Assembly (NCBI RefSeq): GCF_006740685.1
Contig: NZ_CP035425.1
Span: 845,687 to 909,686, forward strand
Direction of reading: 5' to 3'
DNA length: 64,000 bases
Source: Candidatus Nitrosopumilus sp. SW
GTDB taxonomy: Archaea; Thermoproteota; Nitrososphaeria; Nitrososphaerales; Nitrosopumilaceae
This document shows positions 37,192 to 38,019 of the stretch, piece after piece. Position 1 is the first letter of the stretch. Each line of letters begins with the position of its first letter. A program made the translations under genes and the position numbers. The notes under the pieces are model-generated. The model was given only the letters and a program-made list of their open reading frames with translations, was not told where the DNA came from and searched no databases.

Positions 37192-37284
37192 CGGGCTTGG
37201 AGGGCTTCGATCCCTCGACCTGTAACTTAGGAGGCTACCACGCTATCCATGTTGCGCGTCAAATTGACTCTGCGCCACAAGCCC
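37192..37284 (-). tRNA. tRNA-Arg(CCU) with an 18-nt intron in the D loop
   Basis: Reading the minus strand: acceptor GGGCTTG/CAAGCCC pairs perfectly; anticodon stem GTAGC/GTTAC encloses loop CTCCTAA with anticodon CCT (37229-37231) after T33; T-arm GAGGG/CCCTC with loop ATCGAAG. The D arm only forms normally (GCGC/GCGT, loop AGCATGGATA containing G18-G19) when 18 bases at 37252-37269 are removed. The unspliced transcript has a bulge-helix-bulge at exactly those borders. Mature length 75 with discriminator G and no encoded CCA. Arg CCU reads AGG codons. Confidence 0.88.
37252..37269 (-). other. tRNA intron (D-loop position 15/16)
   Basis: The intron is AGTCAATTTGACGCGCAA on the minus strand. 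Bulge AGA, the 4-bp helix GCGC/GCGC, and bulge AAC place both cuts after the second base of each three-base bulge, and an inner GTCA/TGAC stem closes the intron. Splicing endonuclease EndA would remove it. Confidence 0.8.
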
Positions 37285-37308
37285 AGCAAAAAAAACATTC
37301 TTAATTAT

Positions 37309-38019
37309 TTAAGCGTAGTCAAGATTTTTCTTGATCATTTCTTGAATACTTTTCCAAGTTTCATTTTCTTGATCATTCCATTTTTCAAAATACACAACAT
37401 CTTTTAGTTCAAGTCTTGGTAACCAACCTGCAGTTTCAAGATCTGGTTTTTCTGCAAAGTCATCCACATATCCTAAACACAAATACGCTACAGGAACAAC
37501 ATGTTCTGGTAAATTCAAATTTTCTTTTAGTGTCTCATTTGATAGGATACTTACCCATCCCAGACCAACTCCTTCTGTTCTAGCTGATAACCACAAATTC
37601 TGAATTGCACAACATACACTATACAATCCTGCTTCTGGAATACTGGATCTTCCAATCACAAATGGACCAAATTTTGATGGATCATACGTTACGCACAAAT
37701 TAACTGGAGATTCTAAAATTCCTTCTAGTTTGAATGAAAGATATTTGGATCTTTTTGGCTCCTCTACTAATTGTGATGAACGATTCTTCTCTTCCTCAAA
37801 TGACGCTTTAATTTTCTTTTTTGTTTCAATATCTTTTATCAAAATAAAATTCCATGGTTGGGAAAACCCTACAGATGGTGCATGATGTGCTGCATGAAGA
37901 ATTTTTGAGAGAATTTTATCTTCTATGGGCTTTGACGTAAAATGAGATCTTACATCCCTTCTTGAATAAATTGCCTTGTAGAATCCTCTTTTTTCTTCTT
38001 CAGTAAAATCATCTTTCAA
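37309..38019 (-). CDS. bluB: BluB: 5,6-dimethylbenzimidazole synthase (nitroreductase fold)
   Basis: A 236-residue FMN protein that breaks reduced FMN with oxygen to give the lower ligand of vitamin B12. Seen: Y-S-R-R-D-V-R (about 18-24), H-A-A-H-H-A-P-S-V-G-F-S-Q-P-W-N-F (about 42-58), G-R-S-S-I-P-E and the C-A-I-Q-N-L-W-L-S-A-R-T-E-G-V-G-L-G-W-V-S segment, all BluB-specific. With cbiH in this window it implies cobalamin with a dimethylbenzimidazole ligand. Thaumarchaeota are known cobalamin producers. Confidence 0.9.
   Translation of the reverse strand: MKDDFTEEEKRGFYKAIYSRRDVRSHFTSKPIEDKILSKILHAAHHAPSVGFSQPWNFILIKDIETKKKIKASFEEEKNRSSQLVEEPKRSKYLSFKLEGILESPVNLCVTYDPSKFGPFVIGRSSIPEAGLYSVCCAIQNLWLSARTEGVGLGWVSILSNETLKENLNLPEHVVPVAYLCLGYVDDFAEKPDLETAGWLPRLELKDVVYFEKWNDQENETWKSIQEMIKKNLDYA

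Follow-up and report, generated by a model that had tools for sequence, protein, structure and literature searches.

A noncanonical D-loop intron in the tRNA-Arg(CCU) gene of Candidatus Nitrosopumilus sp. SW

Introduction

Archaeal tRNA introns at sites other than 37/38 are well described in the relatives of Nitrosopumilus. The tRNAscan-SE 2.0 paper reports 107 noncanonical tRNA introns in Thaumarchaeota and a phylum-specific BHB model (PMC8450103), and D-arm introns have been reported in related archaea (PMC3293823). Intron-rich archaea, Caldiarchaeum among them, likewise carry introns outside the anticodon loop, and in Caldiarchaeum intron number also differs within a population. On the enzyme side, the (alpha-beta)2 type of EndA is assigned to Thaumarchaeota (PMC4090602), and K44 and R46 of the A. 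pernix enzyme are discussed as the functional residues of a crenarchaea-specific loop (PMC12397907).

Here we describe an 18-nt intron at position 15/16 of tRNA-Arg(CCU), found in a 64,000-nt stretch (the window) of the genome of Candidatus Nitrosopumilus sp. SW, an archaeon taken to be an ammonia oxidizer. It resembles the tRNAscan-SE 2.0 set in phylum, in lying away from 37/38, and in the enzyme inferred to act on it; it is probably contained in the tables of that paper (PMC8450103), and there is a good chance that GtRNAdb already lists it. Among the paper texts searched, none names this gene's intron or its position. In the intron-rich archaea, by comparison, the tRNAs and positions differ (for example, tRNA-Thr 24/25 and 45/46). 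The intron is therefore ordinary, because its class is already known, yet it is unusually well documented. It sits at a single position and is found in some members of several genera but not in others, a clean natural series for studying intron gain and loss and the substrate range of the thaumarchaeal (alpha-beta)2 EndA. The analysis also corrects the annotation of a gene that common tRNA finders overlook.

Results

The unspliced tRNA-Arg(CCU) gene occupies 93 nt on the minus strand of the window (37192..37284) and has orthologs in nearly all genomes of its family. Read from 37284 to 37192, it runs GGGCTTG TG GCGC AG, then AGTCAATTTGACGCGCAA, then CATGGATA GCGT G GTAGC CTCCTAA GTTAC AGGTC GAGGG ATCGAAG CCCTC CAAGCCC G. 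Exon 1 (GGGCTTGTGGCGCAG, tRNA positions 1-15) lies at 37270..37284, the intron at 37252..37269, and the 60-nt exon 2 (CATGGATAGCGTGG...CCAAGCCCG, positions 16-73) at 37192..37251, all on the minus strand, as does the anticodon CCU at 37229..37231; exon 2 and the anticodon were read from the sequence, the former also from intron-less relatives. Coordinates, strand and anticodon had been given correctly in the original prediction. Every arm pairs normally after the 18 bases are taken out, and the predicted mature tRNA has 75 nt and a D loop, AGCATGGATA, with G15, G18 and G19. The exons stand in 5'-3' order, 18 nt apart, which is not the arrangement of a split or permuted tRNA; nor is the site, 15/16, that of a canonical intron. 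A putative TATA-like promoter box, CTTAAATA (37306..37313, minus strand), lies 22-29 nt upstream of position 1; it was recognized by resemblance, and a similar counterpart stands upstream of both intron-bearing and intron-less genes in relatives. The T loop, AUCGAAG (37205-37211, minus strand), has A in place of the usual T54. tRNA-Arg(UCG) and the family's Arg orthologs share this T loop, and orthologs in family f8 have UUCAAAU or UUCGAAU.

Some relatives have the gene without the 18 bases. At the search threshold, 244 of 250 family genomes gave a tRNA-Arg(CCU) match, a number that may take in other Arg tRNA matches in incomplete genomes. A query with the spliced sequence gave full-length 75-nt matches in several relatives, with 99% identity in two genomes (G059 and G079). 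In intron-less relatives exon 1 abuts exon 2 directly, GCGCAG being followed at once by YATGGATAGCG, exactly at the predicted splice site. Intron-less copies occur in four genera (g14, g21, g12 and g1), and three of these also include intron-bearing copies: g14 (L085, L086), g21 (G246, from L178) and g1. In G169, a genome belonging to the window's own genus, the intron-less gene is flanked by the nitroreductase and FMN-reductase genes that also flank it in the window. Within the genome itself, the paralog tRNA-Arg(UCU) (L132) has a D loop identical to the predicted spliced loop, which bears out the G18-G19 loop foreseen in the original prediction, as the intron-less junctions bear out its view that the D arm is normal only without the 18 bases. 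We regard the comparison with relatives as decisive, since the same gene in relatives, lacking the insert, joins exactly where splicing was predicted. By comparison with close relatives that have the gene intron-free, the D-loop intron of tRNA-Arg(CCU) is confirmed as real.

The inserts of relatives share one architecture. Parsing yielded 147 loci, of which many overlap; they contain 63 distinct introns, 14-34 nt long with fixed ends. Nearly all open with A, followed by a hairpin's 5' and 3' strands, then by GCG and a last trio of bases, commonly NAR. The inner helix averages 4.16 bp in the 63 distinct inserts and 0.65 in shuffled ones, with none of 1000 shuffled sets exceeding 1.17; the pairing is not a matter of chance. 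In an alignment of 23 sequences, compensatory changes occur at all three counted inner pairs (18 double-change cells; 0 of 500 shuffles), and 93.7% of cells are paired, against at most 51.3% when the partners are slid. Shuffling leaves relatedness in, so more weight falls on the slid control and on how many pair types occur than on the cell count.

Could a mobile element or a random event have placed the insert recently, its likeness to an intron being chance? The 3' end of the intron is often like the end of exon 1, GCGCAG, as a small duplication might leave it. However, inner-helix covariation speaks against such an origin, as does the fact that site and architecture recur in two families of this order and in two more that belong to other orders of the class; we give the idea next to no credence.

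We consider it just as improbable that the gene is a disrupted pseudogene. It is indeed overlooked by standard tRNA finders: an ARAGORN scan of the window did not report a tRNA-Arg(CCU) at 37192-37284, and the Rfam tRNA model (RF00005) gave a partial match of 28.5 bits, under the cut-off of 29. However, the exons are near-identical throughout the family, the pairing of the insert is kept by compensatory change, and this is the sole CCU gene found in a genome (G000; 1.5 Mb, single contig) that is 99.5% complete. By the original prediction, an intact tRNA-Arg(CCU) elsewhere in related strains would have counted against it; in this genome, no second CCU gene turned up among the tRNAs assembled from family searches and retrieved stretches.

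In the minimum-energy fold of the precursor (-34.7 kcal/mol), the D-stem 5' strand GCGC (positions 10-13; 37272..37275, minus strand) is the exon strand of a central helix whose intron strand, also GCGC, lies at 37254..37257 (minus strand). This fold further contains the AGA bulge (37269..37271, minus strand) and a GUCA/UGAC hairpin. The 3' bulge, AAC (37251..37253, minus strand), follows from the sequence and the exact empty sites, which together with sequence and fold also set the 5' bulge; the predicted cuts are AG^A and AA^C. Perhaps the 18 bases are instead kept in the mature tRNA as a larger D arm? A fold in which the D stem is forced is feasible, at -28.2 kcal/mol, but it is 6.5 kcal/mol costlier than the bulged one. 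Moreover, the insert varies in length among relatives while its ends stay constant, and in some of them it is precisely absent. Retention thus seems very unlikely, if a little less so than the insertion and pseudogene explanations. In some family f8 precursors (e.g., L108), a competing fold has the minimum energy.

The original prediction had described the junction as bulge AGA, helix GCGC/GCGC and bulge AAC. These elements stand: 3-nt bulges flank a short exon-intron helix, and the structure drawn there agrees with the one computed as having minimum energy. The motif as a whole needs refinement. An outer helix was looked for between positions 8-9 and 16-17, and positions 9 and 16 show no covariation. 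The GCG of the intron strand is near-invariant in relatives and the fourth base is variable; the fourth central pair, between G10 and an intron base, is G-C here, but 33 of the 63 distinct introns have A opposite G10, and 10 of 22 aligned sequences leave this pair open. The strict BHB motif (two 3-nt bulges, a central helix of 4 bp and both flanking helices) is consequently absent, because the outer helix is missing and the fourth central pair, kept here, is often lost in relatives. For the same reasons we place the motif among the relaxed forms known as HBh' or bulge-helix-loop (PMC6379350). Like relaxed substrates already known, it presents one good bulge and an inner helix, with the exon side open.

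The genome encodes a splicing endonuclease and a ligase. There are two EndA genes. The product of one, EndA alpha (178 aa), has its nearest match in A. pernix EndA (3P1Z; E 2.1e-42); it has a His aligned at the catalytic residue mutated in 3AJV (H133A), and in the alignment its K35 and K37 stand opposite A. pernix K44 and R46. The other, EndA beta (199 aa), is family-like and lacks the catalytic His in an alignment to 1A79. An RtcB ligase gene is also present. Judged by sequence, the two EndA proteins fit an (alpha-beta)2 enzyme, with a catalytic alpha and a separate structural beta subunit, and the catalytic His and conserved loop Lys (A. pernix K44) of alpha predict broad specificity for it.

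We infer the following pathway. The whole gene would be transcribed as a single precursor, intron included. The D-stem 5' strand would pair with GCGC near the 3' end of the intron rather than with its D-stem partner, and the middle of the intron would form the GUCA/UGAC hairpin, leaving the AGA and AAC bulges. The (alpha-beta)2 EndA, with its predicted broad specificity, would cut at both bulges, and RtcB would ligate position 15 to position 16. The D stem could then pair normally in the mature tRNA. Removal of the 18 bases restores the cloverleaf, as expected of an EndA-spliced (BHB-type) intron. Because empty sites, covariation, fold and encoded enzymes agree, and no other reading fits all four, we hold with great confidence that this is a noncanonical EndA-type intron at 15/16, with cutting and joining of the precursor predicted at the sites given above.

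Discussion

Judging from the sequences compared, the intron is not peculiar to the source organism. We refer below to families f1, f2 and f8, which we take to be Nitrosopumilaceae, Nitrosocaldaceae and Nitrososphaeraceae, respectively. Of the Nitrosopumilaceae and Nitrososphaeraceae examined, most have the intron. In a 29-genome tree of aCPSF1, the well-supported branches require that intron state changed at least seven times, with six of these changes falling within Nitrosopumilaceae. Since site and architecture are shared, losses are the simpler reading, and at least six losses in Nitrosopumilaceae are apparent.

Beyond Nitrosopumilaceae, states rest on few genomes per family, many of the assemblies being fragmented. 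Within that scope, the introns of family f8 occupy the same site, except for some g51 genomes with the D stem GCTC (L110, L268, L269); genus g23 of family f2 and several other families are without the intron. In other orders of the class, same-site introns occur in family f20 and in one f18 genome (L265, L270, L271, L277), and f22 and genus g70 of f18 are without them. A single old gain followed by many losses is possible, as are repeated gains at the same site. We raise, as an idea that is probably wrong, that throughout class Nitrososphaeria introns have occupied 15/16 of tRNA-Arg either from ancient times or recurrently, and were often lost afterwards. If used recurrently, the site might be favored because the D-stem GCGC is self-complementary, so that a copy of GCGCAG suffices for a spliceable helix.

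Further inserts were noticed in arginine tRNA genes. In one family f3 genome (G251), tRNA-Arg(CCG) has a short D-loop insert, apparently at the same 15/16 site (L266); in another (G267), a probable tRNA-Arg(UCU) has a long D-loop insert with the direct repeat CTCAGTTTGG on its flanks (L112). In three further genomes (L121 in G265, f17; L115 in G292, f2; L267 in G275, f14), tRNA-Arg(CCU) is seemingly interrupted near the anticodon rather than in the D loop.

Extra bases were also noticed in three other tRNA genes of the Nitrosopumilus sp. SW genome. In tRNA-Val(CAC) (G000:C1:1304736-1304830, minus strand; L151), some 20 additional bases close to the variable region are probably a further noncanonical intron. 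A probable tRNA-Leu(UAA) (G000:C1:1074614-1074736, plus strand, ends approximate; L164), missed by ARAGORN, apparently has an insert in the D-arm region and a second one following the anticodon. tRNA-Glu(UUC) (G000:C1:565703-565795, plus strand; L163, L291), for which ARAGORN gave no match, has a T-loop insert of about 15 nt (GGGTTCAAAATCAATCGATGAAAATCCCGG) that is exactly absent in several relatives of the same genus (L279-L289) and present in others (L290, L292-L295).
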